DNA from: Syntrophomonadaceae bacterium
GTDB taxonomy: Bacteria > Bacillota > Dethiobacteria > DTU022
Direction: 5' to 3'
Assembly (NCBI GenBank): GCA_007119965.1
Contig: SKOR01000041.1
Location: 1-37,346, forward strand
DNA length: 37,346 bases
Shown piece after piece: positions 1,205-32,844 of this stretch (its first letter is position 1; the number at the start of each line of letters is the position of its first letter). Both the position numbers and the translations under genes were made by a program. The notes beneath the pieces are model-generated. The model did no database searches. It saw nothing but the letters and a program-made list of their open reading frames with translations, and was not told where the DNA came from.

Positions 1205-3334
1205 TTATTCCAGGCCAAGCCCGGATATCTTTCGATAGAGCCATGAGCGGCTGATGCCTAAAATACGGGCAGCCTCGCTCTTATTGCCTTCTGCCTGCTG
1301 CAGGGCCTTTGCTATTGTTTCACGTTCCCTGGCTTCCCGTTCCCGGCGGTAGGCCGGCATCCCGGTGGCCGGAGTTTCTCTGCGGGGAAGCGATCCATGC
1401 CCGGCATTGAGGCTCCCGGGGCCGGAACCGGTCCTTAACTGCGGCGGCAAATGCTCCAGGCCGATCACCTGATCCACAGAGAAATTCATAGCCCTCTCGA
1501 TTACGTTTTCCAGCTCGCGAATGTTGCCCGGCCAGGAATATGAACGCAGGGCTGCCATGGCTTCCCTGGTTATATCGCCGACCTGCATGCCGAATATTTT
1601 ATTATACTTGCCCAGGAAAGCATAAACCAGTGGTTTAATATCTTCAACCCGATCCTTCAGAGGGGGGATCGGGATGGGGATTACATTAAGGCGGTAAAAG
1701 AGATCTTTCCGGAAACTGCCGTCTTTTACTTTACTTTCGAGATCCTGGTTGGTCGCGGCTAGAAAGCGGATATTAACTCTGATTGTCGCCGTATCGCCGA
1801 CACGTTCGTAAGCCTGATCCTGCAAAACCCTTAAAAGTTTCCCCTGCAAAGACAGCGGCATATCGCCTATCTCATCCAGAAACAGGGTGCCACCGTCTGC
1901 CCTGTCGAGAAGGCCTTCCTTGCCGCTTTTGCTGGCCCCCGTGAAAGCGCCTTCCGCATATCCGAAAAATTCCGATTCGAGGAGGTTCTCAGGAATTGCC
2001 GCACAGTTGACCTTCACAAACGGTGCGCTGCTGCGCTGGCTGTCCTGGTGGATGGCCTGGGCCATAAGTTCTTTGCCCACGCCGCTTTCCCCGCTGATTA
2101 AAACCGTCGACAAACCCTGGGCAGCCTGCCGCGCTTCCCAGATCAAGGCCTGCATAGCAGGATTAATGGTGATAATATCTTCAAAATGAAATGGGCGTTC
2201 CCTGTAGCGCGCTTTTTTCAGCTCTTCCTGAAAATGGGCCAGGCGGCTATCCATAGTTTCCAGCCGGGTAGCCAGTTCACGCAGTTCATCAACACGGCGG
2301 AAACTGATTTTGCCTACCGCGCCGATTACCTGCTGGTCCCTGACTATGGGCAGCCTGGAAACCACGTAAGGTTTGCCGTCGATGAACTGAATATCGTTGA
2401 GCTCCGGAATCCCTGTTTTTACCACGACGTGCAGGCGGCTGTTTTGAAGCACCTCACTGACGGGGCGGAACATTACTGCTTCCTCTTCAAGACGGACAAA
2501 GTCTAAAAATGTGCGGTTGACCAGGATAACTGAACCTTGTTCGTCAACAACTACCAGGGCATCGTAGCCGATATCAAGGACTGTTTGCAGGGTCCTGTTC
2601 AACCGCTTAACAGTACCCATTTCTTCAGCAATCGATTCCAGTTCGGTGATGTCCTGAAATATGGCAATGGCCCCGACCACCCGGCCGTTGTCCAGTAAAG
2701 GTGTCTTGTTGACCATGGTCGTGGTCTCACCGACTGTATAATTGGCCCCGATTTCAACAAGCCCTGTCTCGAGAACTTTCCCAATTTCCAAGCCGGGCAG
2801 TATTTCATCCAGGGGTTTGCCCTGGACCTGGTCGTGATTGATGGAAAACAACTGGCCTGCCGAGCGGTTAATAAAGTTAATCCTGCCTGTTTCGTCAACC
2901 GATACGATGGCATTGTGCATGGCCTGACACATGGCGTTAAGCCTGGTGTTCAGGAGCCGCTCTTCTTTAAACAGGGCAGTAATCAGCTCGACCTTGGTAA
3001 ACAGGCCCACTACCCTGTCACAGGCATCGACCACGACCCCAGTTCCGACCGGAATACGGCGGACAGCTTCAATCACTTCGCTGTAGGTCAGGTCTTTCGA
3101 AATTTTTACCACGTTACGGTTATAAAACCTGCTGACTGCACTATCCAGGGAGTTATTACTGATTAAAGCATCATAGAGGTTGGTCTTGGTGAAGATACCG
3201 GCCAGGGAACCGTCTTCATGCAGCACCGGCAGCCCGTCGCGCCTGCTGTTGCGCAGCAGGTTGACAGCGCTTTGCAGGCTGTCGTCCGCTTTCAACGTGG
3301 AATAATTAGAGGTCATCATATTTTCCAGTCGCAT
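1205..3334 (-). CDS. Sigma54-dependent transcriptional activator with CBS pair and two PAS domains
   Basis: Enhancer-binding protein that would hydrolyse ATP to open sigma54 promoters. In order: two CBS repeats (about residues 1-120), two PAS domains (about 130-340), a short coiled stretch, a sigma54-interaction AAA+ domain with Walker A GESGVGKE, the sigma54-contact motif GAFTGA and Walker B GGTLFLDEIGD, and a Fis-type helix-turn-helix at the C-terminus (SEAARILGISRSWLYRKI). The CBS pair suggests sensing of adenine nucleotides or S-adenosylmethionine; the PAS domains suggest a small ligand or redox cofactor. The ATG has AAGGAGG 8 nt upstream. It lies 20 bp after recN and 43 bp before the acyl-CoA dehydrogenase. 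Control of that dehydrogenase is an inference from adjacency. The length (709 aa) is complete for this architecture. Confidence 0.93.
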   Translation of the reverse strand: MRLENMMTSNYSTLKADDSLQSAVNLLRNSRRDGLPVLHEDGSLAGIFTKTNLYDALISNNSLDSAVSRFYNRNVVKISKDLTYSEVIEAVRRIPVGTGVVVDACDRVVGLFTKVELITALFKEERLLNTRLNAMCQAMHNAIVSVDETGRINFINRSAGQLFSINHDQVQGKPLDEILPGLEIGKVLETGLVEIGANYTVGETTTMVNKTPLLDNGRVVGAIAIFQDITELESIAEEMGTVKRLNRTLQTVLDIGYDALVVVDEQGSVILVNRTFLDFVRLEEEAVMFRPVSEVLQNSRLHVVVKTGIPELNDIQFIDGKPYVVSRLPIVRDQQVIGAVGKISFRRVDELRELATRLETMDSRLAHFQEELKKARYRERPFHFEDIITINPAMQALIWEARQAAQGLSTVLISGESGVGKELMAQAIHQDSQRSSAPFVKVNCAAIPENLLESEFFGYAEGAFTGASKSGKEGLLDRADGGTLFLDEIGDMPLSLQGKLLRVLQDQAYERVGDTATIRVNIRFLAATNQDLESKVKDGSFRKDLFYRLNVIPIPIPPLKDRVEDIKPLVYAFLGKYNKIFGMQVGDITREAMAALRSYSWPGNIRELENVIERAMNFSVDQVIGLEHLPPQLRTGSGPGSLNAGHGSLPRRETPATGMPAYRREREARERETIAKALQQAEGNKSEAARILGISRSWLYRKISGLGLE

Positions 3335-7175: not shown

Positions 7176-9077
7176 TTAAGTCACACCTTTGACAGCTTCA
7201 GGCCCGACAAAGTCGAGGGCTTCGTCATAAATGCTTTCCGTATCGAGGCTGCAGCAGGCAAGCATTTCTGCCCTTGTCCCGTGCCCGACAAAGCAATCTC
7301 CGACTCCCAGGCGTTTTACGGGGACCCTGAGGCCTTTTTGTTCAAAAAGTTCCAGTATGCTGCTGCCGAATCCGCCGGCGAGCACATTTTCTTCAATAGT
7401 CATTACCCTGTGGCATTTTCCGGCCCAGCTTAAAATCAATTCTTCGTCCAGTGGTTTCACGAAGCGGGCATTGATTACTGCCGCCTTGATACCCTGCCAA
7501 AACAGCTTCTCTGAAGCTTCCAGGGCTGAATTTACAACCGACCCTGCCGCAATAATCAGCAGGTCTTCCCCCTGCCTGATCAGTTCGCCTTTACCCCAGG
7601 GCAGGATCTGCGGAGCGGTCAGTTCAATCCCGACTCCTTTATCCCTGGGATAGCGAATTGCCACCGGGCCGCCTTCATAGTCAAAAGCGGTTTTCAGCAT
7701 ATGCTGCAATTCATCTTCATTAGCCGGGGCCATAATCGACATGTGGGGCATGGTCCGCAGGTAAGTCAAATCAAACAGGCCCTGGTGCGTTTCACCGTCT
7801 TCACCGATAATTCCGGCCCGATCCACGGCAAAGACAACGGGCAGTTTTTGCAGGCAGGTATCATGCAGTATTTGATCGTAAGCCCGCTGCAGGAAAGTAC
7901 TGTAAACTGCAAATACAGGGCGCATTTTCCCGGCAGCTAGCGCTGAGGCAAGGGTTGCCCCGTGCTGTTCTGCAATTCCGACATCATAAAAACGATCGGG
8001 GAATTCTTCGGAGAACTTCTTCAAACCGGTCCCCGATGTCATTGCCGCAGTCAGGGCGACAATTTTTGGGTTTTCACGCGCCATTTCCAGAAGGGCGCTG
8101 CCAAAGACATCGGTATAGGTGGGGTTTTGCTTTTTTTTCAACGGCACACCGTTACTTAAATCGAAAGGCCCGATCCCGTGAAACGCTTCCGGGGATTTTT
8201 CGGCAAAATGGTAGCCTTTGCCTTTTTCAGTTACAACATGGACTATAACAGGGCCGTTCATCTTATCGGCCTGTTTTAAAATATTTTTAATGGCAGCAAT
8301 ATTGTGACCGTCTACCGGACCAAAATAAGTAAAACCGAGTTCTTCAAAAAGCATACCGGGCATCAGGAGGTACTTCAGTCCGCCCTTAACCCTTTCGGCA
8401 GAACTAATCAGCTGTTTCCCGATCAGCGGTATTTTGTTAACGAATACTTCAAAATCCCGCTTTAACCTGGAATACTTGGGATCGGAACGGATTCGTCCCA
8501 GGTAGGAGGACATGCTGCCCACATTTGAACTGATCGACATTTTGTTGTCATTGAGGATAACCAGCATGTTGGCCTTAATATGGCCCGCATGGTTCAGGGC
8601 TTCGAAGGACATCCCCCCGGTGAGGGCGCCGTCGCCGATTACCGCGATTACCTTGTAATCGTCGCCGTGATGATCGCGCGCCCTGGCTAAACCGAGCGCT
8701 GCGGAAATTGATGTGCTGCTGTGCCCGGTGAGGAAAGGATCATGTTCGCTTTCAGCTGGCTTGGGAAAACCGCAAAGACCGCCCAACCTGCGCAGGGTCG
8801 GAAATTGTTTCCAGCGCCCGGTCAGCAATTTATGCGGGTAACTCTGATGCCCGACATCCCAGATAATTTTATCGCGGGGGCTTTTATAAGTACTGTGCAG
8901 GGCAAGCGCCAATTCGACAACCCCCAGGCTGGCAGCCAGGTGACCGCCGTTATCGGCAACAGTCCGGGTCATATATTTACGGACTTCTGCAGCAGCCTTT
9001 TCAAGTTGGGCTGTATCCAGGCCTTCCAAATCGTCAGGCAGGTTTAAGCTGCTGATCAAGTTATCAATCATAATCAC
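7176..9077 (-). CDS. dxs: 1-deoxy-D-xylulose-5-phosphate synthase
   Basis: Thiamine-diphosphate enzyme condensing pyruvate and glyceraldehyde 3-phosphate, the first step of the MEP isoprenoid route. Visible: WDVGHQSYPHK, the ThDP-binding GDGALTGGM followed by an Asn about 30 residues on, and the DXS-specific VDRAGIIGEDGETHQG in the transketolase pyrimidine domain, then the C-terminal transketolase domain. Length 633 aa is normal. The start is ambiguous by two codons: GTG at 9077, or an ATG two codons in, with a GGGGTG that could act as ribosome site only for the latter. It follows oapA by 9 bp, so the two are probably co-transcribed. Confidence 0.97.
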   Translation of the reverse strand: MIMIDNLISSLNLPDDLEGLDTAQLEKAAAEVRKYMTRTVADNGGHLAASLGVVELALALHSTYKSPRDKIIWDVGHQSYPHKLLTGRWKQFPTLRRLGGLCGFPKPAESEHDPFLTGHSSTSISAALGLARARDHHGDDYKVIAVIGDGALTGGMSFEALNHAGHIKANMLVILNDNKMSISSNVGSMSSYLGRIRSDPKYSRLKRDFEVFVNKIPLIGKQLISSAERVKGGLKYLLMPGMLFEELGFTYFGPVDGHNIAAIKNILKQADKMNGPVIVHVVTEKGKGYHFAEKSPEAFHGIGPFDLSNGVPLKKKQNPTYTDVFGSALLEMARENPKIVALTAAMTSGTGLKKFSEEFPDRFYDVGIAEQHGATLASALAAGKMRPVFAVYSTFLQRAYDQILHDTCLQKLPVVFAVDRAGIIGEDGETHQGLFDLTYLRTMPHMSIMAPANEDELQHMLKTAFDYEGGPVAIRYPRDKGVGIELTAPQILPWGKGELIRQGEDLLIIAAGSVVNSALEASEKLFWQGIKAAVINARFVKPLDEELILSWAGKCHRVMTIEENVLAGGFGSSILELFEQKGLRVPVKRLGVGDCFVGHGTRAEMLACCSLDTESIYDEALDFVGPEAVKGVT

Positions 9078-9086
9078 CCCGAATAT

Positions 9087-9659
9087 TTACTGCGTCTTTC
9101 TGAACCAGGCTAAGGGTCTTTCCATCCTGGTAATTAAAGAACCGACCATCAGAATTACCTCTGTCGAATAATTGATCGCCACTATCTTTCCCCATGCTTT
9201 GCCGCCCACTGTCAGGGCTGCAACCAGGGCAGTCAGCAGGATCCCAAGGTAGAATTCAGCCTGATCGACTGGTACAGTCACCACCAGCCTGTAAACAAGA
9301 ATTGCCGCCAGCGTTCCGCTGACTACCCCGCTGATATCGCCGGCAACATCATTACAGAAGTTTGCAACCTGTTCTGCATTCTTAACCAGGTAGACCCCGC
9401 GCCGCGCCCCGACCACCCTGCGGGCAGCCTTGGCATTTAACGGGCCTATTTTGGCCGCCGCTGCAGCCGTGCCGATCAGGTCAAAGATAACCCCCAGGGC
9501 AACTACCATGAATAACAGGGCAAAAGAAGCGATCAGAGACTGGATCTCATTTAAAAAATACTGGGTAACAAATCCGAATATGATGGCGAGAAAAAAAGTA
9601 TAAATAGAAATCAGGATAACCCAGCGTGCACGTCGGCGGCTTTTACTTTTATTAGCCAA
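9087..9659 (-). CDS. oapA: OLE-associated membrane protein OapA
   Basis: A 190-residue membrane protein with a basic N-terminus (KSKSRRRAR) and about four hydrophobic segments (near residues 14-36, 43-66, 110-132 and 136-158). The stretch between segments two and three is rich in Ala, Arg and Lys and resembles the DUF21/CNNM magnesium-transporter core. Position directly downstream of the structured non-coding RNA and upstream of dxs matches OapA, the protein that binds OLE RNA and carries it to the membrane in Firmicutes; loss of that complex is known to cause magnesium, cold and alcohol sensitivity in Bacillus halodurans. The start is TTG with AAGGTGAT 6 nt upstream; the nearby out-of-phase ATG stops after four codons. 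The OapA identity rests on context and topology, not on an alignment. Confidence 0.85.
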   Translation of the reverse strand: MANKSKSRRRARWVILISIYTFFLAIIFGFVTQYFLNEIQSLIASFALLFMVVALGVIFDLIGTAAAAAKIGPLNAKAARRVVGARRGVYLVKNAEQVANFCNDVAGDISGVVSGTLAAILVYRLVVTVPVDQAEFYLGILLTALVAALTVGGKAWGKIVAINYSTEVILMVGSLITRMERPLAWFRKTQ

Positions 9660-9683
9660 ACTTCATCACCTTTATACAAAAAA

Positions 9684-10249
9684 ACATAAGTGGTAGTAAA
9701 CCAGGTAAACTTTGCGGCTTAGGTCCAGCAGGATTTCCCGGGCAGTCACCTGTCGTCGCCGAGCAGGCAGTTCCCTTTTAAGACTACCCCCGCTGTGTCG
9801 CCATCAGCAGAGCTGGATTACCACTTAGCTCACACTTTAATCCCTGGTTTACTTCTCCTTCGAGAGCAGTCTAGAAGATTTCCTCCCTGACGCCTGATCT
9901 CCCCTAGCCCCTTTTGCAGAATAGGTTTAAGGAGCCGGAGCTCCCTCCACCTATCCCACTCAGGGCAGGCTACGCTGTACACAGCTTTGTACCGCATACA
10001 GGTTCATACCCAGGCAGTAGCAGTTTTGCTGTTAACAATATGCTACCGGCACTGGGTCTCCGCGAAGGTAGGGTCAACGCCTACATGCCATTGTAGATCG
10101 CCCCATCCTTCTTAACTCCCAGCAGCAGCCCCCAACTGGGCGTCGGCGGCCACCACCAGGAACTTCATCGATGTGCCCTTAACGGATTTTTAGGCCCGTT
10201 TTCGGAGAGGGGCGCCAACTAGAATACTGCACCACTTATGTCCATTGTT
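9684..10249 (-). ncRNA. ole: OLE RNA (Ornate, Large, Extremophilic RNA)
   Basis: About 565 nt with no credible protein gene but dense secondary structure. The RNA 5' end (10232-10241) and 3' end (9684-9693) are perfect 10-bp complements, and a run of U follows the 3' arm. A second perfect 10-bp helix pairs 9696-9705 with 9843-9852. Local hairpins include 9921-9926/9949-9954 enclosing 9931-9935/9940-9944, 9977-9981/9988-9992, 10081-10085/10092-10096 and 10118-10122/10136-10140. It has its own promoter and is followed by oapA and dxs, with folD, ispA, xseB and xseA upstream, which is the established OLE locus of Bacilli and Clostridia. OLE forms a membrane ribonucleoprotein with OapA. The ends are estimated from the promoter and the terminal helix. 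Confidence 0.9.
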
Positions 10250-10255
10250 CAAAAT

Positions 10256-10284
10256 ATTATAGCACAACGCGCTGCTGTTCTCAA
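10256..10284 (-). promoter_or_regulatory. SigA-type promoter of OLE RNA
   Basis: Minus strand: -35 TTGAGA (10279-10284), 17-bp spacer, -10 TATAAT (10256-10261) with an extended -10 TG one base upstream. Predicted transcription start is near 10249, a few bases before the 5' arm of the OLE terminal helix. This would let OLE be made at a higher level than the surrounding operon. Confidence 0.85.
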
Positions 10285-10312: not shown

Positions 10313-11251
10313 TTAAAGTATTTTGTAGTGTATTTTACATGCTTTAAGGGCGTTTTTCATCAGCATTCTGTTGGTAACTGAGCCAACGCCTTTGGGGACA
10401 GGCGTAATTGCCTTTGTTTTACCTTTAACTGCTTCGAAACTGACATCGCCTACGGTTTTAGACTTTTGTTTTCCCTTCTCATTTAGCACAGGCTCGCCTT
10501 TTTCATCAAATACCTTGACACGGTTGATACCGACATCAATTACGATTGCGCCTTCCTTAACCTGCTCTGGGCCGATCAACCCGGCTTTTCCGGCGGCGAC
10601 TATCAAAATATCGGCTCCTGTGGTGTGCTTCTCCAGGTTGCCTTTCATGCTGCTGAAAACATGTGTAACGCTGGTGGTTGCATTGCGGTTAAGCACCAAC
10701 AGGGCAATCGGTTTGCCCACGGTGTTGGAGTGGCCGACAACGACAATTTCGGCGCCTTCGAAGAAGTCTTTCGGGTCAACTTTGTCTTCTTTGCGGGCAA
10801 AACGCTCCAGGATTTCTATAACCGCAGCAGGGGTTGCCGGCGGGAATGTTGCTTCACCAAGCGTCAGCCTGCCCATATTGAAGGGGTGGAAGCAATCGAT
10901 GTCTTTGTTTACATCAATCGAATTAATTACAGCGTAGTCCGAAATATGCTCGGGAAACGGACGCAGGGGCAAAATACCGCTTACTTCATGGTCTGCATTT
11001 AATTCCAGAACAGCTTCCTTAACCTGCTCCTCTGTGGCTTCGGCAGGCAGAATCTTGTTAACATAGTTAAAGCCCGCTTCTTCGCAGAATTTTTCAACCT
11101 GGCCGCGGTACATCTTGGAGCCAAAGTCGTCCCCAACCAGCAGGGTGGCAATTCCGGGAGTAATTCCTTTCGCTTTTAACTGGCTGGTCTCCTCTTGAAT
11201 CTCCTGCATAATTTCTTCGCCAATTGCTACACAATCAATTACTTTTGTCAT
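10313..11251 (-). CDS. folD: Methylenetetrahydrofolate dehydrogenase, FolD variant lacking cyclohydrolase residues
   Basis: Folate one-carbon enzyme interconverting 5,10-methylene- and methenyl-THF. FolD features include VVVGHSNTVGKPIALL (nucleotide site), KDIDCFHPFNMGRL and a C-terminal TPVPKGVGSVT. The catalytic Lys found four residues after the conserved Tyr in bifunctional FolD is Val here (MYRGQVEKFCEE), and the usual VQLP-type loop is PLRP, so the neighbouring Gln is also gone; the later Asp (KDID) is kept. This predicts a dehydrogenase with little cyclohydrolase activity, and fchA upstream would supply that step. It is about 25 residues longer than ordinary FolD, with an insert near VFDEKGEPVLNEKGKQ. 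ATG at 11251 is preferred (AAAGGGG 10 nt upstream); a TTG one codon earlier is possible. Cofactor preference cannot be told. Confidence 0.88.
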   Translation of the reverse strand: MTKVIDCVAIGEEIMQEIQEETSQLKAKGITPGIATLLVGDDFGSKMYRGQVEKFCEEAGFNYVNKILPAEATEEQVKEAVLELNADHEVSGILPLRPFPEHISDYAVINSIDVNKDIDCFHPFNMGRLTLGEATFPPATPAAVIEILERFARKEDKVDPKDFFEGAEIVVVGHSNTVGKPIALLVLNRNATTSVTHVFSSMKGNLEKHTTGADILIVAAGKAGLIGPEQVKEGAIVIDVGINRVKVFDEKGEPVLNEKGKQKSKTVGDVSFEAVKGKTKAITPVPKGVGSVTNRMLMKNALKACKIHYKIL

Positions 11252-11316
11252 CAAACAATAACCCCTTTCTCTTACTTTATTGATAGACCTTAAATAAACA
11301 CCTTTATGCCGCAGTA

Positions 11317-11367: not shown

Positions 11368-11997
11368 CTACTTGAATTTTTCAATCACGCTATTCAGGGT
11401 TTGATCAGCCACCCTGCTTCCTTCTTCTACCAGGTGATCTACTTCAGCCACCGTTTCCTTGACAAACTGGTCGTCTTTAATTGCGCCCAGGTTAATTAAA
11501 ACATTCAGCTGGCCGCTGATCAGGGCTGCTTTTAGAAATGCGACGCCGCACCCCACATCAGAGATGGCCAGTTTTGTGCCGATCTGACCCATTCTTTCAT
11601 GTATTTTTATCCCCGCATAGGATTTGCGCATAATTTCCAGGGGCACGGAACAGGCATCTTTTGAACATTCTTCCATAACCTTTGCCTTGTGCGCAGCCTG
11701 TTCTGCGGTCTCTTTTGGTAAGCCGTACGCCTTGGAAAGCGGTTCAAATACTTCAGCATCTTTGTCGATCAGGACTTTCAGATCTTCAATGATCTGATAC
11801 CCCTGCTCCAGCAGTTCTTTAACTTCATCTTCAACATCGGCGAACTTCTTTTTCCCCACGGTCAGGTTGCCGACCATGTTCGAGAGAGCCATACCGATCG
11901 CCCCGCCCATTGCTGCCGCCCCGCCGCCGCCGGGTACCGGGGCTTTCGATGCCAGCACATCCAAAAAATAACTGCTGCTCTTCTCTGCCATTGACAT
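11368..11997 (-). CDS. fchA: Methenyltetrahydrofolate cyclohydrolase, cyclodeaminase family (FchA)
   Basis: Small all-helical enzyme of the formiminotransferase-cyclodeaminase family. It hydrolyses 5,10-methenyl-THF to 10-formyl-THF, and in some relatives deaminates formimino-THF. The N-terminal glycine motif APVPGGGGAAAMGGAIG and following VGNLTVGKKKF are the folate-binding signature; SDVGCGVAFLKAAL near residue 160 is also typical. The start is ATG at 11997, 9 nt after AGGAGG; an in-frame TTG at 12006 overlaps the ribosome site and is unlikely. Length 209 aa is normal. No hutI or formiminotransferase gene is present, so a C1-pathway role with the adjacent FolD is favoured over histidine degradation. 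Confidence 0.93.
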   Translation of the reverse strand: MSMAEKSSSYFLDVLASKAPVPGGGGAAAMGGAIGMALSNMVGNLTVGKKKFADVEDEVKELLEQGYQIIEDLKVLIDKDAEVFEPLSKAYGLPKETAEQAAHKAKVMEECSKDACSVPLEIMRKSYAGIKIHERMGQIGTKLAISDVGCGVAFLKAALISGQLNVLINLGAIKDDQFVKETVAEVDHLVEEGSRVADQTLNSVIEKFK

Positions 11998-12179
11998 AAT
12001 AACCAACCTCCTATTAATGATAATCCCGGAGCCGGGAACCGGCAGCCGCTTTGAGGCAGCTCTGGCCGGTTCAAAACATCCAGCTTCCTGCTGAATGCCA
12101 CAAACTCCTTAATTGAAAACACACCCTAAATAATCTATATCCCGGGTCCTGCTTCTGAACAGCACCGGGTTGGCCGTAT

Positions 12180-13064
12180 TTACTTTTTGCGGTCAATTAT
12201 TTTTTTGGCCAGCCCTTTCAAGAGGCCGGCAGGGCAATCAAGTTCGTTTAACGCTGACAACGCTTCGTTGTAGAATGACTCCGCCCTTTTTTTAGTTCCT
12301 TCCGGGCCAAAGAAGGCTGGATAGGTGGCCTTGAAACGGACCTGGTCTGCCCCGGCCGGCTTACCCAGTTCTTCCGTGGTGCTTTCATAATCAAGCAGGT
12401 CATCAACAACCTGAAAGGCTTTGCCGATATTGGAACCGTAAGCCCTGAGGGCTTTAAGCTGCTGTTCTGTAGCACCTGCGGCAATCCCCCCGCAGGCTGC
12501 GGCCGCCCTCAACAGGGCGCCTGTTTTAAGCGCGGATATTCTATCTATTTCAGAAAGGGAAATATCCCTGCCTTCCGCGTCAAGATCCAGGGCCTGCCCG
12601 CCGATCATCCCCGCTGCCCCGGCGGCGGCAGAAAGTTCTGCTGCAATGCGGACCGCTTTTCTTTCATAACCTTCCCTGCTGCCGTACCCCGCCACTGTTT
12701 CAAAAGCAAGGGTCAGGAGGGCATCTCCGGCCAGGATCGCCATAGCATCACCGTAAACACGGTGGCAGGAGGGTATACCCCGTCGCAGATTACTGTCGTC
12801 CATAGCCGGCAGGTCATCATGAATCAGTGAGTAAGTGTGTATAAATTCCAGGGCACAGGCCACTTCAAGGTCTGCATCATCTTCTGAGCCCAGGGTTTTC
12901 GCTGCGGCAAGGGTCAGGATCGGCCTGAGCCGCTTGCCGCCGGCTTCCAGGCTGTAGCGCATAGCAGCGCTAACCGCAGGAGGAGCGTCCGGAGGGAAAT
13001 ACTGACCCAGGGCGAGGTTGATCCTTTTTCTTTCAACCTCCAGGAAGCGTTCAATATCAATCAT
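12180..13064 (-). CDS. ispA: Farnesyl/geranyl diphosphate synthase (polyprenyl synthetase)
   Basis: Trans-prenyltransferase building C15 (possibly C20) diphosphate from IPP and DMAPP for quinone and cell-wall carriers. The first Asp-rich motif is HDDLPAMDD followed by LRRG; the second is FQVVDDLLDYES. The residues before the first motif (FIHTYSLI) fit a short-chain farnesyl-type enzyme. The ATG shares one base with the xseB stop (TGATG), indicating translational coupling, with GGGAG 7 nt upstream. Length about 294 aa is normal. Adjacent xseA/xseB and downstream dxs are the common Firmicutes association. FPP versus GGPP product is an inference. Confidence 0.94.
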   Translation of the reverse strand: MIDIERFLEVERKRINLALGQYFPPDAPPAVSAAMRYSLEAGGKRLRPILTLAAAKTLGSEDDADLEVACALEFIHTYSLIHDDLPAMDDSNLRRGIPSCHRVYGDAMAILAGDALLTLAFETVAGYGSREGYERKAVRIAAELSAAAGAAGMIGGQALDLDAEGRDISLSEIDRISALKTGALLRAAAACGGIAAGATEQQLKALRAYGSNIGKAFQVVDDLLDYESTTEELGKPAGADQVRFKATYPAFFGPEGTKKRAESFYNEALSALNELDCPAGLLKGLAKKIIDRKK

Positions 13065-13327
13065 CAATCTTCTCCCTCTTGAGTGGTGTTACCCTGTTCA
13101 CAATCGTCGGCGCCCAGAGCCTGCTGTTCCTCTTTGAGCAGGTATTCCACCCTGTATTCAATTTCTGCCAGTTTTTCCCTGCAGTACCGGGAAAGGGCAA
13201 TCCCTTCCTGGAATGCTGCAAGCGATTCTTCAAGGGGGATGTCGGTATCTTCCAGGCGCTCAACGATTTCTTCTAATTTTTGCACGGCCTCTTCATAATT
13301 CATCTTTTCCGGTTTTTTATTTGTCAA
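13064..13327 (-). CDS. xseB: Exodeoxyribonuclease VII small subunit
   Basis: Small helical subunit that multimerises on XseA in the ssDNA-specific exonuclease VII. Typical segment: MNYEEAVQKLEEIVERLE followed by PLEESLAAFQEG. The start chosen is TTG at 13327 because AGGAGG lies 9 nt upstream, overlapping the xseA end by 11 bp and giving 87 aa. The alternative ATG at 13303 begins exactly at MNYEEAV (79 aa) but has no good ribosome site. The C-terminus is an acidic, variable tail. It overlaps ispA by one base. Confidence 0.93.
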   Translation of the reverse strand: MTNKKPEKMNYEEAVQKLEEIVERLEDTDIPLEESLAAFQEGIALSRYCREKLAEIEYRVEYLLKEEQQALGADDCEQGNTTQEGED

Positions 13328-14543
13328 CGATCCTGCCCTCCTCAATCTCTTCAGTGCGGCAGCGGGCCCGCCCGTCGCTGAAACTCAACTGCAGGATTCC
13401 TTCCGGCTCCAGGTCTTTTACTGACCGGATAATCTTGCCCTCTTCATTTCTGCAGTAACAATAACCCCGGCTCATAACTTTAAGGGGGCTGTAGCTTTCC
13501 AGCCTGTCATTCAGGCCCTGCAACCTCATCCCTTTGTACTGCAGGACACGGACAATTTCACGGCGCAGTTTTCTGTCCAGCTGACCGAGCGCTTCTTTTG
13601 ACATCCTGATCCGCCTGGCCGGCAGGGCAAAGAAACGTTCGCTGACTATATGATCAAGAGCCTGTTTTTCCCTCTGCAGCCGCCTTTTCAGGGCTAATGC
13701 AGCCCTCTCCCGAAGCTGACCCTGGACGTCAAGCAGATCCCCCAGGTCGGGGACGGCAGCCGAGGCGGCCGCTGTCGGGGTCGGCGCGCGCAGATCGGCG
13801 GCAAAATCAGCAATCGTGAAGTCGGTTTCATGGCCTACGGCCGAGATAACCGGGACCTCCGAGCGGTAAATGGCCCGGGCTACCATTTCTTCATTAAACG
13901 GCCACAAGTCCTCAAGAGAACCGCCACCGCGTGTTAAAATAATCACGTCAATATCCTTGCGCCGGTTTAACAGGCCAAGAGCCCGGACGATGTCAGACCC
14001 GGCTCCCGGGCCCTGGACCAGGCTTTCCGCCACAACCAGGTGAACATGGGGATAGCGGGCTTTAACCGTGATCAGGATATCCTGTAAAGCTGCCCCGGTC
14101 GTAGAAGTTACCAGGCCAATTCTGCGGGGCAGGGCCGGGATCTTTTTTTTATGCTCAGGCCGGAAGAGGCCTTCCTGCTCCAGTTTCTTTTTGAGCTGTT
14201 CGAAGGCAAGAAAAAGTGACCCCATGCCGGCAGGCTCCATCTCGCTGACATAGAGCTGGTAGACACCATCAGGTTCATAAACTGATATATTGCCGTGCAG
14301 GATTACTTCCATGCCATCGGAGGGCTTAAAAAGACAACGTGCATTCTCCCTGCGAAAAAATACACAGCGCAGGGAAGACTTGCTGTCTTTTAAAGTAAAA
14401 TACATATGGCCTGATCGATGGTGCTTGAAGTTGGACAATTCGCCCCCTACCCACAGGTCGCGCAGGCGGGGATCTCCGTGAATCAACCCCTTGACATAGC
14501 GGTTTATCTCTGAAACTTTTAGGACAGAAATGTTATTTTGCAA
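13317..14543 (-). CDS. xseA: Exodeoxyribonuclease VII large subunit
   Basis: Catalytic subunit of exonuclease VII, degrading single-stranded DNA in repair. An N-terminal OB-fold (VGGELSNFKHHRSGHMYFTL) precedes the conserved catalytic region LTRGGGSLEDLWPFNEE and ISAVGHETDFTIADF with LRAPTPTAAA. A coiled-coil C-terminal part follows. The start is TTG directly after the preceding gene's TGA (zero spacing), with GGAGG 5 nt upstream; no ATG is better placed. Length 408 aa is slightly short but within range for Clostridia. It forms one cistronic chain with xseB and ispA. Confidence 0.96.
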   Translation of the reverse strand: MQNNISVLKVSEINRYVKGLIHGDPRLRDLWVGGELSNFKHHRSGHMYFTLKDSKSSLRCVFFRRENARCLFKPSDGMEVILHGNISVYEPDGVYQLYVSEMEPAGMGSLFLAFEQLKKKLEQEGLFRPEHKKKIPALPRRIGLVTSTTGAALQDILITVKARYPHVHLVVAESLVQGPGAGSDIVRALGLLNRRKDIDVIILTRGGGSLEDLWPFNEEMVARAIYRSEVPVISAVGHETDFTIADFAADLRAPTPTAAASAAVPDLGDLLDVQGQLRERAALALKRRLQREKQALDHIVSERFFALPARRIRMSKEALGQLDRKLRREIVRVLQYKGMRLQGLNDRLESYSPLKVMSRGYCYCRNEEGKIIRSVKDLEPEGILQLSFSDGRARCRTEEIEEGRIVDK

Positions 14544-16562
14544 TCAGGCCTCCATCTCCTCCCGGACTTCTTCCAGGGATGCATAGTTCCATTTCGCACC
14601 CAAATGGCGGGCCAGTTCACAGATCAGGCGCCAATCCTCAATGTCCTCCCCGCCGGGTTTAAGAGCGGCCCGGTTTAAGCGGGTCATGCCGGAAGCATTG
14701 ATAAACAAACCTTCCTTTGTCTCGACGCCCTGTGCGGGCAGCAGAAGATCGGCTTCCCCGCCATCTTCCCGGGGTACGCCTGCCGCGACCAGGAACCCGG
14801 GGTTCTTTGCCTTCAATTCAGGGTCAAGCGAACCGAAATTCAAAACCCCTTTTACTTTGCCTGCCTTAGCTGCAGCGGCAATCCCGGCCCTGTTTAATCC
14901 GCTGTCGCCGGTTAAGGGTGTAAAACCCGGGCCTGCTGCAGGGGTGCCCCCAGCAGCCAGAACCCCGGCGGCGTTGCTGTATGCTGATAAAAGCAGCATC
15001 CTGCTGCGCCCTTTTTCGATCAAGCCGCTTTCCCTGGCCAGGTCAAGCAGGGCTTTCACCGCATCAGGGTCGGCATTGTTAATATAGGAAGGGCAAACAA
15101 CAAGAAAGCTTTTCGGCCGGGTAATCAGGTCGGCTATTCTTTCAAGATCTGCCCGGTTAAAAGAAGTTTTTGCAGCAATTTCTTCGCTATTTCCACCGCG
15201 CACCATTTCCAGGAGCGCCCTTGTTAATTGTACCTCCGAGCCATCCTCAACCCCTAAAGGAATCCCTTTCCAGGCAGAAGGAATTTCTTCCCCGCCTGCC
15301 GTCCTGATCACCACGGCATCGCCGTAGCGCCCGGCCTGCCCGACAGCCATAGCCGCAACGGGATGGCTCTCTTCCAGGCCGGAGCCGATTACTAATATTG
15401 AATCAGCCCTGCTGACTTCAGCGGGTGTGGGCCCCGGTACCCCGATGCCGACAGTATCCTGTATACCGCTAAAAGCTTTTACCCAGGCAGCTTCTGCACC
15501 TAAATCCACATTGGGCGTGCCGAGGATATCCCTGGCCAGTTTCTGCAGCAGGTAGTTTTCCTCGATACTGAGCCGGCCTGATGAAAGTACCGCCAGGGAT
15601 TCAGCTCCGTGTTTTTCTTTTATGGCGAGCAGCGCTCCGGCTGCCTGTTCGAGGGCGGCGCCGGGGGTTATTTCTTCATAACCGCCGCTTTTCCGGTTCA
15701 ATTTTAAAGCATTGGTCTGGGGATCGCCGCCGTTTTGCTCCCGGTGGCCGAATTTGCCCCGGATACAGAGCCAGCTGACCTTATCGCCTTCGGCAGGAAC
15801 CGTTACTTTAATTAGTTTGTCCCCGGATACCTGCCTTTCCAGGTAACAGCCCAGCGAACATTCGATGCAAACCCCTGCAGCAGAAGAAAGCTCCCATTCT
15901 CTGCCCCCACTGCTGCGGCCTTGCTCAGTCAGGGCAGCTACCGGACAAACATCGACACACTGACCGCAAAAGATGCAGCCAGCCTCTTCCATTGAGACTT
16001 CTTTGCCGTCACGGTAAGGCACTACCCTCGTATTGACTCCTGTGTTAATCATTTCGTAGACGAAGGCTCCCGGCCCCGAGCGGCATATTTGAATGCACCG
16101 CCCGCATAGAATACATTTTTCTTCATCCCTGACAATATAATAGTTGTCCCCGTCATCTTCAGCGGGGATATCGCGTTCAAGTTGTTCGGGCAGGTCTGTC
16201 TGAAAACGGTAGGCATTTTCCTGCAGCTCGCAGGTCCCTGTCCGAACACAGGTCAGGCAGTCTTTGTACGGATGGGTAGCCAGGGAAAGTTCCAGGATAC
16301 TGTTGCGCATTGCCGTCAGTTCAGGGGTATTCGTGGTAACTTTCATTCCCTCCGTTACCGGATTGTCGCAGGAGGTAACCGGCCGATCCAACCCTTCAAT
16401 AAGGACAATGCAGACCCGGCAGTGGCCGAGAGGCTTTACCCTGGGATGGAAGCAGAGAGTCGGGATAGTTATACCGTTCTGCCTGGCCGCTTCTAAAATG
16501 GTTGTTCCTGTTTCCGCATATATTTTTTTACCGTCAATTTCTAATCCGATTGTTTTATTCAT
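14544..16562 (-). CDS. NuoG/FdhA-like iron-sulfur subunit without active-site Cys/Sec
   Basis: Electron-transfer subunit related to complex I NuoG and formate dehydrogenase alpha. In order: [2Fe-2S] ligands C37, C48, C51, C65; a His-Cys cluster H97, C102, C105, C111; two ferredoxin [4Fe-4S] motifs (C150-C160 and C196-C206); the molybdopterin-type [4Fe-4S] ligands C232, C235, C239, C266; then a molybdopterin-oxidoreductase fold. Where formate dehydrogenases carry the catalytic Cys or Sec, this protein reads NVDLGAEAAW (residues 351-360), with neither, so it is probably not a formate dehydrogenase. At 672 aa the C-terminal domain is also short. The ATG overlaps the upstream NuoF-GltD gene by 8 bp, implying a two-subunit complex. 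The electron acceptor is unknown. Confidence 0.85.
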   Translation of the reverse strand: MNKTIGLEIDGKKIYAETGTTILEAARQNGITIPTLCFHPRVKPLGHCRVCIVLIEGLDRPVTSCDNPVTEGMKVTTNTPELTAMRNSILELSLATHPYKDCLTCVRTGTCELQENAYRFQTDLPEQLERDIPAEDDGDNYYIVRDEEKCILCGRCIQICRSGPGAFVYEMINTGVNTRVVPYRDGKEVSMEEAGCIFCGQCVDVCPVAALTEQGRSSGGREWELSSAAGVCIECSLGCYLERQVSGDKLIKVTVPAEGDKVSWLCIRGKFGHREQNGGDPQTNALKLNRKSGGYEEITPGAALEQAAGALLAIKEKHGAESLAVLSSGRLSIEENYLLQKLARDILGTPNVDLGAEAAWVKAFSGIQDTVGIGVPGPTPAEVSRADSILVIGSGLEESHPVAAMAVGQAGRYGDAVVIRTAGGEEIPSAWKGIPLGVEDGSEVQLTRALLEMVRGGNSEEIAAKTSFNRADLERIADLITRPKSFLVVCPSYINNADPDAVKALLDLARESGLIEKGRSRMLLLSAYSNAAGVLAAGGTPAAGPGFTPLTGDSGLNRAGIAAAAKAGKVKGVLNFGSLDPELKAKNPGFLVAAGVPREDGGEADLLLPAQGVETKEGLFINASGMTRLNRAALKPGGEDIEDWRLICELARHLGAKWNYASLEEVREEMEA

Positions 16563-18540
16563 CGTTTGCCCTCCCCGCTGAAACGACAGCCAGGCCGAGA
16601 CGCAGGCAGGTAATGCATCTTTCGGCTTCGGTGATCACAGCCGAAGGGCATTTAAAACCAAGTTCCGCTTCGTCAAAACCCTGCATCCTTTCAGCCACCG
16701 GCCTCACTTCTTCTTCCAGGCGTTCCCTGTTTCCAATCACTGCGGGAACTGTTTCTTCACTGTAGACACCGAGGTTTTCGATGTGTTGTTCCAGCTTGAA
16801 CCTGCTTCCGACAGCGCTTTTGCCTTCACGCAGGTAACTGTCGATCGCTTCGGCAGCCCGATTTGCCGTAGCGATCGCTTCAATTACTGTCCTGGCGCCA
16901 AGCACGGCATCGCCTCCGGCAAATATGCCCGGTATCGAGGTAGCCATGGTTTCTTCATCAACCTGCAGCGTACCCCATTTGGTGACATCAATAGAACATT
17001 CTTTGTCCAGGAAACAGAAATCGGCTACCTGCCCGATGGCAGGTATTACGGTATCGGCACTGAGGATGAATTCAGAGCCGTCAAGCGGAATCGGACGCCG
17101 TCTTCCGCTTGCATCCGGCTCGCCTAATTCCATTTTTACGCACTCCATACCGCTGACTGAACCGCCGTCTTCGAGGATACAGGTTGGGTTGGCCAGCAGG
17201 TGGAACTTAATCCCTTCTTCTTCCGCTGCATCAATTTCCGCCTTATTGGCCGGCATTTCAGTCCTGCTGCGGCGGTAGATCAGGTGCACTTCTTCTACCC
17301 CAAGCCGGACGGCAGAACGGGCACAATCCATGGCCACGTTTCCGCCCCCTATAACAGCCACACTGCTGCCAAGTTCGACCGTTTCTCCGAGGTTAAGCTT
17401 CCGTAAGAATTCCACTCCCGGCAGATAACCTAAATAACAGGCATCTTCGCCTTCACAACCCATGGTCGCGCTGTCGTGGAGACCGTTGGCGATAAAGATG
17501 GCCCTGTACCCTTCAGACCAGAGCTGATCGATAGTTTTATCAACCCCGATTTTTGTATTGTAAACAATTTCGACGCCGAGCTTTTCAACCAGGCTTATTT
17601 CGGCATTTAAAATCTCGCGCGGCAGCCTGTAACTCGGTATACCGACAGCGAGCATCCCACCGGCTATGGGCAGGGCTTCATAAATCGTAACCGCGTATCC
17701 CTTTCGGGCCAGCTGGTATGCCGCATTGAGGCCGGCGGGCCCGGCACCTACAACGGCAACCCGATCTGCATCTGGCGCAGGACGGGGATGCTCCCTTTTT
17801 TGATCATAGTTGTTCGAAGCCCCGAAATCGGCAACAAAGCGCTTCAAAAGCCTGATCGAGAGCGATTGGTCGTAAGGCTGGCGGTTGCAGTTCGATTCAC
17901 AGGGGTGGACGCAAACCCGGCCGAGCGTTCCGACCAGTGGGGTCTTTTCGCGGTTCACGGCCAGGGCTTCCTCATAATTGCCATCCTTGATACAGGCGAT
18001 ATATTTCGGGATATTGATATGCGCAGGGCACCCGTTCTGGCATGGAGCGGTCATGATCGGGTGGTAATCGAAGTTGTTCTCGGCGGCAACCCCGGATCCG
18101 CTGACCAGGGCGCTAAAATCTTCCCTGAAGTACTCGAGGGCATGGATCAGGGGAATCGGGGAAGAGATACCCAGTTCACATAGTGAGCTTTCTTTTATCA
18201 GCGCCGCCATCTCTTCTAAAAACAGGAGGTCTGCTTCGCTGCCGCTGCCGGCTGTGATCTTTTCCAGGCGGTCGGCAATAACTTTGCTTCCGGCCCGGCA
18301 GGGGATACAGCGCCCGCAGGATTTATCCTGGACTTTTATAAAATACTCTTTCAATGCACTAACTACATTTACTTCCGGATCGGATATGATCAACCCCGCC
18401 CAGCCGATCATCGCTTTTAAATCTTTTCGATCATAAGTTGCGGGTATATCAAGATCCCGGAGTTCAATACGTTCATCTAACAGTTTTTCACGCTCGTCGA
18501 CAATTTTTCCGTTCCAGCTGCTGAAAAATACCTTGGACAT
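16555..18540 (-). CDS. NuoF-type iron-sulfur module fused to GltD-type NAD(P)H oxidoreductase
   Basis: Flavin/iron-sulfur oxidoreductase. Residues 1-145 resemble the C-terminal [4Fe-4S] module of NuoF (SCGRCIPCR, ligands C75, C78, C81, C121), but the NuoF FMN/NADH domain is absent. Residues 160-640 are a GltD-like unit: Cys-rich C167, C171, C210, C214, C218 region, FAD site VAVVGAGPAGLNAAYQLA, NAD(P)H site VAVIGGGNVAMDCA, and GIFAGGDAVLGARTVIEA. The GltD part thus replaces the NADH-binding half of NuoF. Such proteins occur with NuoG- or FdhA-like partners in acetogens and syntrophs. Start ATG has GAGGGA 3-4 nt upstream. Together with the next gene it probably moves electrons between NAD(P)H and ferredoxin or a one-carbon partner; this is inference. 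Confidence 0.85.
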   Translation of the reverse strand: MSKVFFSSWNGKIVDEREKLLDERIELRDLDIPATYDRKDLKAMIGWAGLIISDPEVNVVSALKEYFIKVQDKSCGRCIPCRAGSKVIADRLEKITAGSGSEADLLFLEEMAALIKESSLCELGISSPIPLIHALEYFREDFSALVSGSGVAAENNFDYHPIMTAPCQNGCPAHINIPKYIACIKDGNYEEALAVNREKTPLVGTLGRVCVHPCESNCNRQPYDQSLSIRLLKRFVADFGASNNYDQKREHPRPAPDADRVAVVGAGPAGLNAAYQLARKGYAVTIYEALPIAGGMLAVGIPSYRLPREILNAEISLVEKLGVEIVYNTKIGVDKTIDQLWSEGYRAIFIANGLHDSATMGCEGEDACYLGYLPGVEFLRKLNLGETVELGSSVAVIGGGNVAMDCARSAVRLGVEEVHLIYRRSRTEMPANKAEIDAAEEEGIKFHLLANPTCILEDGGSVSGMECVKMELGEPDASGRRRPIPLDGSEFILSADTVIPAIGQVADFCFLDKECSIDVTKWGTLQVDEETMATSIPGIFAGGDAVLGARTVIEAIATANRAAEAIDSYLREGKSAVGSRFKLEQHIENLGVYSEETVPAVIGNRERLEEEVRPVAERMQGFDEAELGFKCPSAVITEAERCITCLRLGLAVVSAGRANDE

Positions 18541-25358: not shown

Positions 25359-27137
25359 TCAGTTGTTTTCCCTGTGCAGGCGGGCCAGCAGGGAGGCGCT
25401 GTCAGCAGTACCACCCGGCCCGGCATCAAATATACTGCTGAAAGTAGTCCGGATCACTTCGTTAACAGTGGTTAAACCTTCTTCCACACAGCGCAGGCCG
25501 TCCTGAACCAGCGGGATCATGCCCAGTTCGACAGCCTTCCTCTGCAGAACTTCGGCCGTTACTCCGAGCAGAATCAACTCCTGCAGTTCCTGGCCCAGGA
25601 CTAAAATTTCCTGGATTGAAGTCCTTCCCCGGTAACCGGTTTGATTGCAGCGGCGGCACCTGGCCCCCTTTAAAAGTCTGTGGGGCGGTTCTTTTTTGAA
25701 GTAGCGCCTGTAAAAAAACTTTTCATCATCGGTCAGGCTGTATTCTTCGGCACAATCGGGGCAGATTTTACGGACAAGGCGCTGTCCGACAACGCCAACC
25801 AGGGAAGCGGTAACCAGGTAGTTTTCAAGGCCCATATCGATCAGGCGGGCCACCGCCCCTGCAGCATTGTTTGTATGCAGTGTACTCAAAACCAGGTGGC
25901 CTGTAAAAGCAGCCTGGGTGGTTATTTTCGCCGTTTCAAGATCCCTGATTTCACCGACCATGATAACATTGGGGTCCTGGCGCAATATGGAGCGCAGAGA
26001 ATTGGCAAAAGTCCGGTTGATCCGCGAATTAACCTGGACCTGGTTGACCCCCCTCAAGCGGCATTCAATCGGATCCTCTACCGTGATGATATTGTCTTCA
26101 GGGCGGTTCAGGTAATTAAGAGCAGAATAAAGGGTGGTTGTCTTGCCGCAGCCGGTCGGCCCTGTTACCAGGAGCAGCCCGGCGTGGTTCAACAGCAACC
26201 CCAGGAAAGCTTTGTAGTTGTCCCTGTTAAAGCCGAGTTTTTCAAGAGGCAGGACAATTTTATCTTTTTCCAGCAGGCGGATTACAATTTTTTCACCGTG
26301 AACAGTGGGCAGGGTGGAGATACGCAGGCTGCTGCCCCGCGCGCCGTCCTTCCATTCAATATTGCCATCCTGGGGCAGCCTTCTTTCAGCGATATCCAGG
26401 TTGGCCATAATCTTTACCCTTGAGACAATTTTTGCACTGCTGTGCTTCGGGAGGGCAGCGAGATCGCGCAGAACGCCGTCTAAACGCAGGCGGACCCTGA
26501 GGCTGTCATCAGAGGGTTCTATGTGAATATCGCTGGCCCCTTCTTCGACCGCTTTTTCTATCAGCGATTTGACAATCCGGATTACGGGTGCCTCATCAGC
26601 CGAAACCTCAGTACGCCCTGCCGGGCTGACCCCATCTCCGGTGACCTGATCGGCCAACCCGGCCCGGCTCGCAACCCGGCCGGTAGGCTCCGCAATACTG
26701 TAAAGCTGGGTAATCAGGTAATTAATGCTGTTTTCCCCTGCTGCGACCGGCTTTATTTCCGCTCCCGTCAGCATGGAAACATCGTCCATGGCGGAAAGGT
26801 CCAGGGGATCGGCCATCGCCAGGGTCAGAACCCCTTCTGCTTCCGCAATCGGTATAACGCAGTGGCGCAGGGCCACCTCTGCGGGGACCCGCATGGTAAC
26901 GGCCGGATTAATGGGGTGCATGCCCAGGTTTATCACGGGGATGTCAAACTGCTCTTCTATGACCGAGAGCAGTTCATCTTCAGCAATATAGCCTTTTTCC
27001 ACCAGAAGCTTACTGATCCGCCTCCCCGATGAACGGTGTTCATCCAGGGCCGCGCTGAGCTGCTCCGAACTGATCAACCCCGCCTCAAGCAGCGCCGCTT
27101 CAAGACGGCGCCGGCCAAATAGTGCCAGTTTACTCAC
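25359..27137 (-). CDS. pilB: Type IV pilus assembly ATPase PilB (GspE family)
   Basis: Cytoplasmic hexameric ATPase driving pilus extension. N-terminal MshE/GspE-N domain (about residues 1-150), then the catalytic part with Walker A GPTGCGKTTTLYSAL, Asp box EDPIECRLRGVNQVQV, Walker B NVIMVGEIRDLETA, His box LSTLHTNNAAGAV, and a zinc tetracysteine formed by CPDC and CRRC. Length 592 aa is normal. Start is GTG with AGAG almost adjacent, so initiation may be weak. It lies 39 bp after aroE and before the GspH-like gene. Confidence 0.95.
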   Translation of the reverse strand: MSKLALFGRRRLEAALLEAGLISSEQLSAALDEHRSSGRRISKLLVEKGYIAEDELLSVIEEQFDIPVINLGMHPINPAVTMRVPAEVALRHCVIPIAEAEGVLTLAMADPLDLSAMDDVSMLTGAEIKPVAAGENSINYLITQLYSIAEPTGRVASRAGLADQVTGDGVSPAGRTEVSADEAPVIRIVKSLIEKAVEEGASDIHIEPSDDSLRVRLRLDGVLRDLAALPKHSSAKIVSRVKIMANLDIAERRLPQDGNIEWKDGARGSSLRISTLPTVHGEKIVIRLLEKDKIVLPLEKLGFNRDNYKAFLGLLLNHAGLLLVTGPTGCGKTTTLYSALNYLNRPEDNIITVEDPIECRLRGVNQVQVNSRINRTFANSLRSILRQDPNVIMVGEIRDLETAKITTQAAFTGHLVLSTLHTNNAAGAVARLIDMGLENYLVTASLVGVVGQRLVRKICPDCAEEYSLTDDEKFFYRRYFKKEPPHRLLKGARCRRCNQTGYRGRTSIQEILVLGQELQELILLGVTAEVLQRKAVELGMIPLVQDGLRCVEEGLTTVNEVIRTTFSSIFDAGPGGTADSASLLARLHRENN

Positions 27138-27176
27138 CTCTTTTTATCAGATCGGGCAGCCCTTATTGGTGGCTGC

Positions 27177-28022
27177 TTAAAGTTCAACTGCTTTCCGCAT
27201 TGCGGCAAGGGGCGCTTTCTGCCCGGTAAATTCTTCAAAAGCAATTACTGCCTGCCAGAAAAGCATACCGAGCCCGTTAAAGGCTTTTCCGCCGGATTGG
27301 CTGAAACTTTTCATAACCGCGCTTTCTGCCGGGCTGTAACGCAGGTCGAACAGGAGGCTGTCCCCGAAGGGGATCCCGCTTTCTGCAAGGGCTTCGATAA
27401 ATTCCCGGTGATCAGTGGGCAGGCTGTATACGAACAGGCGGCAGTGAGGCAGCAGGGGCAGCAGGGCTTCCGCATCCAGGGGTACAGCCGTGCAGAGCTT
27501 AAGCTGAGTTTGTGACCGGATCAAGCCTGCCAGCGACTCGGCCTTACCGCGGCTGCGGTTGGTTATATACATTTCGCCGGCCCCTTCCCGGGCCAGGCTA
27601 TAGGCTACAGCACGGGCCGCTCCGCCGGCGCCGATAATCATACATGGCTGTTCGATTTTGTAACCGGAGACCGCCTGTTTTAAAGACCGGCAAAAGCCGG
27701 GACCGTCAGTAGTAAGACCGTGCAGGCTGCCTTCGCGGTTAATGATAGTATTTACCGACCGGATCGTTTCTGCTTCTGCTGAGACAGAATCAAGAAAAGG
27801 GATCACTGCGTCTTTAAAGGGGCTGGTTACGTTCGCCCCTGCTATCGATAACGCTCTCAGGGCCTCTACAGCGGCTCCAATCCGCTTTTCCTCAACATGG
27901 GCTGCCAGGTAGGCATAGTTGAGGCTAAGAGCCTTAAAACCGCTGTTATGCATCGTCGGTGATAAAGAATGTTTTACAGGGTTGCCGAGCAGTAAGCAAA
28001 GCCTGGTTTGCGCATTAATCAT
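27177..28022 (-). CDS. aroE: Shikimate dehydrogenase
   Basis: NADPH-dependent reduction of 3-dehydroshikimate. The N-domain has LLLGNPVKHSLSPTMHN and VTSPFKDAVIPFLD (the usual N in VT-PFK is Ser here), and the C-domain has the nucleotide site MIIGAGGAARAVAYSL with YITNRSRGKAESLA. ATG at 28022 is preferred because MINAQTRLCLLLGNP matches the family N-terminus; an ATG at 28043 would leave only about a 10-nt leader and no ribosome site. Length 281 aa is normal. It heads the leftward aroE-pilB set. Confidence 0.93.
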   Translation of the reverse strand: MINAQTRLCLLLGNPVKHSLSPTMHNSGFKALSLNYAYLAAHVEEKRIGAAVEALRALSIAGANVTSPFKDAVIPFLDSVSAEAETIRSVNTIINREGSLHGLTTDGPGFCRSLKQAVSGYKIEQPCMIIGAGGAARAVAYSLAREGAGEMYITNRSRGKAESLAGLIRSQTQLKLCTAVPLDAEALLPLLPHCRLFVYSLPTDHREFIEALAESGIPFGDSLLFDLRYSPAESAVMKSFSQSGGKAFNGLGMLFWQAVIAFEEFTGQKAPLAAMRKAVEL

Positions 28023-28059
28023 CCGGGCTGCACCAGCTTCCATTAAATAAATATGCAAT

Positions 28060-28068
28060 ATTATAGCA
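28060..28068 (-). promoter_or_regulatory. Extended -10 promoter of aroE-pilB operon
   Basis: Minus strand: TATAAT (28060-28065) preceded by TG one base upstream, an extended -10; no good -35 is present at 16-18 bp. Predicted start about 28053, giving a leader of about 30 nt to the ATG at 28022. Confidence 0.6.
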
Positions 28069-28279
28069 CAGCTGGCTTCTATACGGAATATCAATATACA
28101 GATTTTTCTCAAAAACAGTTTAATCGTCAAATAACTGGCAGGATTTATCCAAGATGCGCCGAAGTATTAACATCGTCAAGCCTTTGGCACAGCCATAAGC
28201 TGCCTGCCCGCACCATTTCTCGAACCGCTCTTTTATTGCGGAGCAGGCGAACCTGCAAAGGGGGCCGAAAGAGGGCCGC

Positions 28280-29083: not shown

Positions 29084-29146
29084 ACTCCTGACCCTTTAAT
29101 CATTAAACCAATCGATACAGTAATAATCACACAAGGAGCTTCATTA

Positions 29147-30063: not shown

Positions 30064-30076
30064 GGTGATAGGAAAC

Positions 30077-30493: not shown

Positions 30494-30576
30494 TACTCTA
30501 TTTATCTTTCACAGGGAGGTGGCCTGTTATCGGCTCAGCAGTAAAATATAATAAACCTCACCAGAAACAAGTCAAA

Positions 30577-32745: not shown

Positions 32746-32844
32746 ACCGGCCCATGCTCAGGACAGTCGCCCGGCAACTGGCCGGCGGGTTAATGAACAG
32801 ATCATGACCAATGCAACTTTAAGCCGGCAGGGGGAATAAACATA

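Follow-up and report, generated by a model that had tools for sequence, protein, structure and literature searches.

The window analysed here, which is the whole 37,346-nt stretch of DNA from a Syntrophomonadaceae bacterium, carries a long non-coding region between oapA and folD. It raises two questions: which RNA is encoded there, and whether this RNA still has all the contacts that are described for its family. Search with cmscan gave a match to the Rfam OLE model RF01071 over model positions 1-616, with 490.5 bits and E 4e-141, which is far over the covariance gathering cut-off of 50 bits. Single-strand folding of the region in comparison with shuffled sequences gave the z value listed in Table 1. 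The sequence-only reading had proposed a 565-nt structured non-coding region and had named it OLE RNA; the distance from P1 to P1 is 558 nt and the covariance match is 578 nt long, both consistent with that size, and the covariance search bore out the name. The shortened P9 described below was absent from that reading. Membership in the OLE family is certain from all features tested save the B3 loop, which is not among the defining features.

To our knowledge, few conserved bacterial RNAs without a known biochemical function are as large as OLE. The ole gene is present in a single copy in the 2.34-Mb assembly, and OLE was carried by 50 of the 60 nearest genomes. Contigs of three related MAGs start or stop within OLE, so the "absence" of OLE in draft genomes may partly reflect assembly breaks at highly conserved stretches. 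OLE-OapA loci were also seen in two records titled outside Bacillota, one as Actinomycetota (L081) and one as Pseudomonas, which are probably mis-binned or mislabelled. The statement that the OLE-OapA setting is established for Bacilli and Clostridia is correct, and PMC11332333 already has it in print for thousands of genomes. Because the pair is so well known, the locus is by identity alone one further family member.

Table 1. Coordinates of the features in the window (positions of the whole stretch).
Feature	Position	Strand	Remark
dxs (1-deoxyxylulose-5-phosphate synthase)	7176..9077	-	TIGR00204, 848.9 bits
oapA	9087..9659	-	190 aa, membrane protein with predicted CNNM fold, TTG start
ole (OLE RNA gene)	9674..10251	-	whole-model RF01071 match, fold z -8.9
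P1 helix, 3' strand	9684..9694	-	perfect complement of 10231-10241; outer pairs co-vary
P13 GGCGAC loop (predicted OapB region), intact	9753..9761	-	GG..AC 100% conserved in both P9 classes
P12.2 GGCGAC loop (predicted OapB region), intact	9796..9803	-	GG..AC 94-100% conserved in both P9 classes
Shortened P9 stem	9904..9973	-	70 nt including flanking anchors, versus 103-118 in full-length P9
UCCG apical loop of short P9	9936..9939	-	replaces P9.2/P9.3 with the GGCC kissing loop (bridge B3)
L6 loop GGCA (dimer bridge B2), intact	10084..10093	-	97-100% conserved in both P9 classes
L5 loop GCCCA (dimer bridge B2), intact	10134..10144	-	98-100% conserved in both P9 classes
J4a/5 strand of k-turn (predicted OapC site), intact	10163..10173	-	GATGAAG 92-100% conserved in both P9 classes
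L4 A-rich loop (dimer bridge B1), intact	10184..10194	-	AAAAA run 97-100% conserved in short and long P9 classes
P1 helix, 5' strand	10231..10241	-	perfect 11-bp complement of 9684-9694; outer pairs co-vary
Sigma-A-type ole promoter	10256..10284	-	TTGAGA (10284-10279), 17-bp spacer, TG-n extended -10, TATAAT (10261-10256)
folD (upstream of ole)	10313..11254	-	PF00763, PF02882
fchA-like cyclohydrolase, ispA-type prenyl synthase, xseB, xseA	11368..14543	-	

The extended -10 promoter proposed ahead of ole was found, with 11 of 12 consensus matches and TG ahead of the -10 element. Promoter-like matches in the region are no more numerous than expected by chance (2 versus 1.7), so the real evidence for this promoter is its conservation. 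Of the 65 OLE genes compared, 56 have a site scoring at least 9/12 just before P1, and in almost every case the TG extension is there too. This agrees with Halalkalibacterium halodurans (H. halodurans), in which ole has a separate promoter (PMC9723947). The ends of the RNA are perfectly complementary as claimed: ACATAAGTGGT (9684-9694, + strand) pairs with ACCACTTATGT (10231-10241) over 11 bp. The GTGGT/ACCAC core of P1 is almost invariant across 60 relatives, and the pairs outside this core co-vary; for example, the first outer pair changes from A-T to G-C.

The gene order is recN, nadK, tlyA, dxs, oapA, ole, folD, fchA-like, ispA-type, xseB and xseA, which is the usual kind of ole neighbourhood. 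All of these genes and the ole promoter are on the minus strand, and the sequence-only reading had left the strand unstated. The gene dxs indeed lies beside OLE and OapA, on the downstream side. In FolD (313 aa), the match to the NAD-binding domain spans 186 residues over a 160-position profile, which suggests an insert of about 28 aa. Adjoining xseA, at 14544-18540, are two iron-sulphur/flavin redox proteins of about 660 aa, one of NuoG-like molybdopterin type and one of NuoF-C-terminal/FAD type, which resemble an electron-transfer module of hydrogenase or formate dehydrogenase. This OLE-carrying bacterium also has a type IV pilus/competence set (PilB-like, prepilin peptidase, PilM and PilC-like) at 25359-34077. 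A sigma-54 activator with CBS and PAS domains is located at 1205-3334, downstream of recN and beside an acyl-CoA dehydrogenase.

The membrane protein downstream had been taken for OapA, and its position and sequence agree with this. The gene starts 14 nt past the covariance match, and oapA lies directly downstream of OLE in all 29 readable loci. The 26 aligned orthologues had 40-87% identity and 29 invariant columns, and the motif NDxxGD (N103, D104, G107, D108) was invariant in all of them. H. halodurans OapA has been mutated at the D-x3-D pair D100/D104 (PMC9723947). D104 and D108 of the window protein share this spacing, which was taken from that paper, the H. halodurans protein itself being outside the alignment.

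OapA is mostly helical. CNNM Pfam matches were present in 15 of the 26 orthologues, and the window protein was below the CNNM threshold. Its weak match to MARVEL in Pfam (E 0.01) was judged as chance, and a PDB sequence search with the OapA profile gave no match. The AlphaFold model (pLDDT 78.6, pTM 0.66) was compared with solved structures. The three best Foldseek matches were all CNNM/CorC transporters, and the four best VIA matches were also CNNM/CorC, with Z of 11.8 and 10.5 over 126-130 residues; the top one was 7m1t (Z 11.8, 3.2 A over 130 residues). Z values of this size can arise by chance between helical bundles, but Foldseek and VIA both rank CNNM first. By fold, the model resembles the transmembrane domains of CNNM/CorC proteins, in agreement with the OapA-MpfA relation described in PMC11332333. 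Compared with the CNNM Mg2+ exporters MpfA, CorC and CorB, OapA shares the predicted fold, but it consists of the transmembrane domain only, CBS and CorC domains being absent, and its gene is the neighbour of ole.

Genes for the other partners are present on other contigs of the binned assembly, for which the estimated contamination is 4.6%. OapB was located by synteny, as a 95-aa KOW-type protein between map and infA with a modest match to the solved OapB 7k9b (E 2.9e-6); a KOW Pfam search of the genome matched L24 and NusG and missed it. OapC is an 81-aa YbxF homologue between rpoC and rpsL (E 6e-16 to YbxF 3v7e/4lck), and the bS21 gene was found with E 3e-21. No protein of the assembly was over the cut-off for a CNNM-type Mg2+ exporter, versus 12 of 14 control genomes that have one. 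MpfA and OLE are reported to be anticorrelated, and the lack of a CNNM match here is in line with it.

In the RNA, the L4, L5 and L6 loops of bridges B1 and B2 are intact. L7, which also contributes to B2 in the solved dimer structure, is variable in both P9 classes. The position of the k-turn site of OapC follows PMC9723947 and PMC12286853, and GGAGA of J6/7, a k-turn feature, is conserved. The k-turn is found together with an OapC gene, and the P12.2 and P13 loops together with an OapB gene; OapC and OapB are predicted to bind this RNA.

The difference lies in P9. The window OLE is 38 nt shorter than the Rfam consensus, and this deficit comes from P9, in which the covariance alignment skipped 41 model positions and used 3 nt. 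The tip of the stem is GGAGC-UCCG-GCUCC. By the length of the P9 segment, the 94 OLE RNAs separate into one group of 65-79 nt and another of 103-118 nt, with 39 short and 55 long members when L081 is counted as long. The P9 of L081 is intermediate in length and has GAGCTC at its middle. The GGCC columns were 93-100% conserved in the 55 long forms and gapped in all 39 short ones, and a palindrome in the unpaired apical loop of P9 was present in 49 of 53 long versus 2 of 39 short forms. In the OLE dimers solved by cryo-EM, bridge B3 is a kissing loop that L9.3 makes with four G-C pairs; the L9.3 palindrome co-varies among GGCC, GAUC and AGCU (PMC12286853, PMC12191101). The window OLE does not have this symmetric kissing loop, and the third bridge cannot form because P9 stops at a short hairpin.

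It could be argued that the segment is missing from the MAG through an error of sequencing or assembly, since the source is a fragmented draft and the contigs of several relatives break inside OLE. The chance of this is negligible, as it is refuted by the same short form in 51 of 71 genomes of the window's order, in which loop sequences differ and stems co-vary. The B3 loop is thus lost across most of the order. The only genuine long P9 in the order was that of one genome (G036), with UUGGCCAG, and it was not caught by the long pattern; the sole long-pattern match in the order (G005, contig C15) was unrelated DNA on another contig.

The short form is not confined to this order. Among 398 genomes sampled over the phylum, the long pattern was matched by 199 and the short pattern by 22. 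Of the latter, 8 belong to the order and 14 do not, so that long and short forms outside the order stand at 199 to 14. The 14 genomes are spread over ten families, three of which also hold long forms, so the arm was probably lost several times. A tree of the 94 OLE RNAs from which the P9 columns were left out shows a single change of the P9 state, with weak support for that branch (49/85). That set was picked by similarity to the OapA or the genome of the window, and therefore the tree under-samples other short forms. One short-P9 OLE outside the order (G342, contig C136, 2942-3004) has TGGCCA in the middle of P9, possibly as an intermediate or with a B3 contact on a short arm.

A shorter P9 was described before, and the short form may be nothing more than the published variant 1 of OLE (TANB77 type; Fernando and Breaker 2024). 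PMC11332333 gives variant 1 shorter P7, P8 and P9, and places the shorter P9 "in many clades", mostly TANB77, which fits with the 14 short forms outside the order. However, P9 alone is short in the window OLE: P7 equals that of Bacillaceae in length (about 52 nt), and P8 (about 25 nt) is of ordinary length and like that of several long-P9 OLEs, whereas variant 1 shortens these too. According to the same text, variant 1 often has no OapB site in P13, and TANB77 hosts mostly have neither OapB nor OapC; the window RNA keeps both OapB-site loops, and OapB and OapC are present. The bit-score rule of that paper (at least 390) would most likely file these RNAs as "full-length", the window score being from RF01071 and not from the paper's model. 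We therefore consider the identity with variant 1 unlikely. By the text description in the part of the paper available, a class with only P9 shortened and all partners present appears separate from variant 1. Variant 2 (RF39 type), as described there, is also naturally without an arm of domain 1, but it is P7 and P8 that it does not have, whereas the window OLE keeps both and is without the distal P9.

With the full-length RF01071 class (H. halodurans, C. acetobutylicum, C. botulinum), the window OLE shares the whole-model match, the own promoter, the overall architecture, the L4, L5 and L6 dimer loops, the k-turn and the OapB loops, as well as oapA beside ole and the dxs/folD/xse/ispA neighbourhood. 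It differs by the short P9 hairpin without P9.2/P9.3 and the GGCC kissing loop, and by a P1 several pairs longer in its clade (the short-P9 clade has about 12 pairs, which co-vary, and other OLEs have about 8). A run of T comes after the extended P1 in this clade.

B3 might also have been replaced, by contacts of the short P9 loops through other weak palindromes or by docking of P9 elsewhere. Both AAACC within P9 and the flanking GTAGCCTG remain conserved, and 12 of the 39 short loops have some 4-nt palindrome when the closing pair is included. The window is among them: with the closing G included, its loop region reads CCGG, which leaves a small chance that some kissing contact persists in this species. 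But the short loops vary in sequence and size among close relatives, and a palindrome is missing altogether from 27 of 39, versus 49 of 53 long forms that carry one in their unpaired loop. Such a replacement seems quite improbable to us.

We consider it somewhat probable that most of the Dethiobacteria-type order runs an otherwise complete OLE particle (OapA, OapB, OapC, bS21) without P9.2/P9.3, and that some other lineages lost the arm independently. B3 and the "arch" of the solved OLE dimer would then be a dispensable module, and the dimer would be rewired in a clade-specific way, with B1 and B2 only and a longer P1. That P9 ends in a short hairpin without B3 indicates that the P9.2/P9.3 arm is dispensable for a maintained OLE RNP.

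For the locus as a whole, our main reading, to which we give a probability of roughly 0.87, is that ole with its own promoter forms a membrane RNP with OapA, OapB, OapC and bS21, as a B1/B2 dimer without B3. Protein binding, membrane location, dimerisation and physiological role of the window OLE follow here from its homologues. By analogy with H. halodurans, OapA with its CNNM fold would anchor the RNA at the membrane, OapC would hold the k-turn, OapB would bind P12.2/P13 and bS21 would bind P6. Two OLE RNAs would dimerise via L4-L4 (B1) and L5-L6 (B2), and we infer that dimerisation persists without B3. The particle would support Mg2+ homeostasis and stress tolerance in a bacterium for which no CNNM-type exporter was detected in the assembly.

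Among named records, the nearest belong to Syntrophomonadaceae MAGs from the sediment of Cock Soda Lake, and a Dethiobacter alkaliphilus MAG falls in the same short-P9 group as the window OLE. A 16S search of the assembly gave no match, and the taxonomy is here taken from the record titles of neighbours. The host is presumably an uncultured Dethiobacteria-type bacterium from a soda lake or a comparable habitat. In a metatranscriptome from the sediment of Cock Soda Lake, about 1% of the ncRNA reads were OLE (PMC6704655). At the level of the community, OLE is therefore expressed in sediment of this kind.

With the OLE dimer structures of 2025 came the question of which bridges between the two molecules are important in living cells. 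A lineage with the whole RNP but with B3 deleted serves as a natural knock-out of the B3 contact. It renders the importance of B3 testable and predicts that B1 and B2 suffice. Being smaller, the short-P9 OLE may also lend itself better to solving the structure of the whole RNA. The otherwise nearly invariant GGCC loop must have a role that the short-P9 lineage does without.
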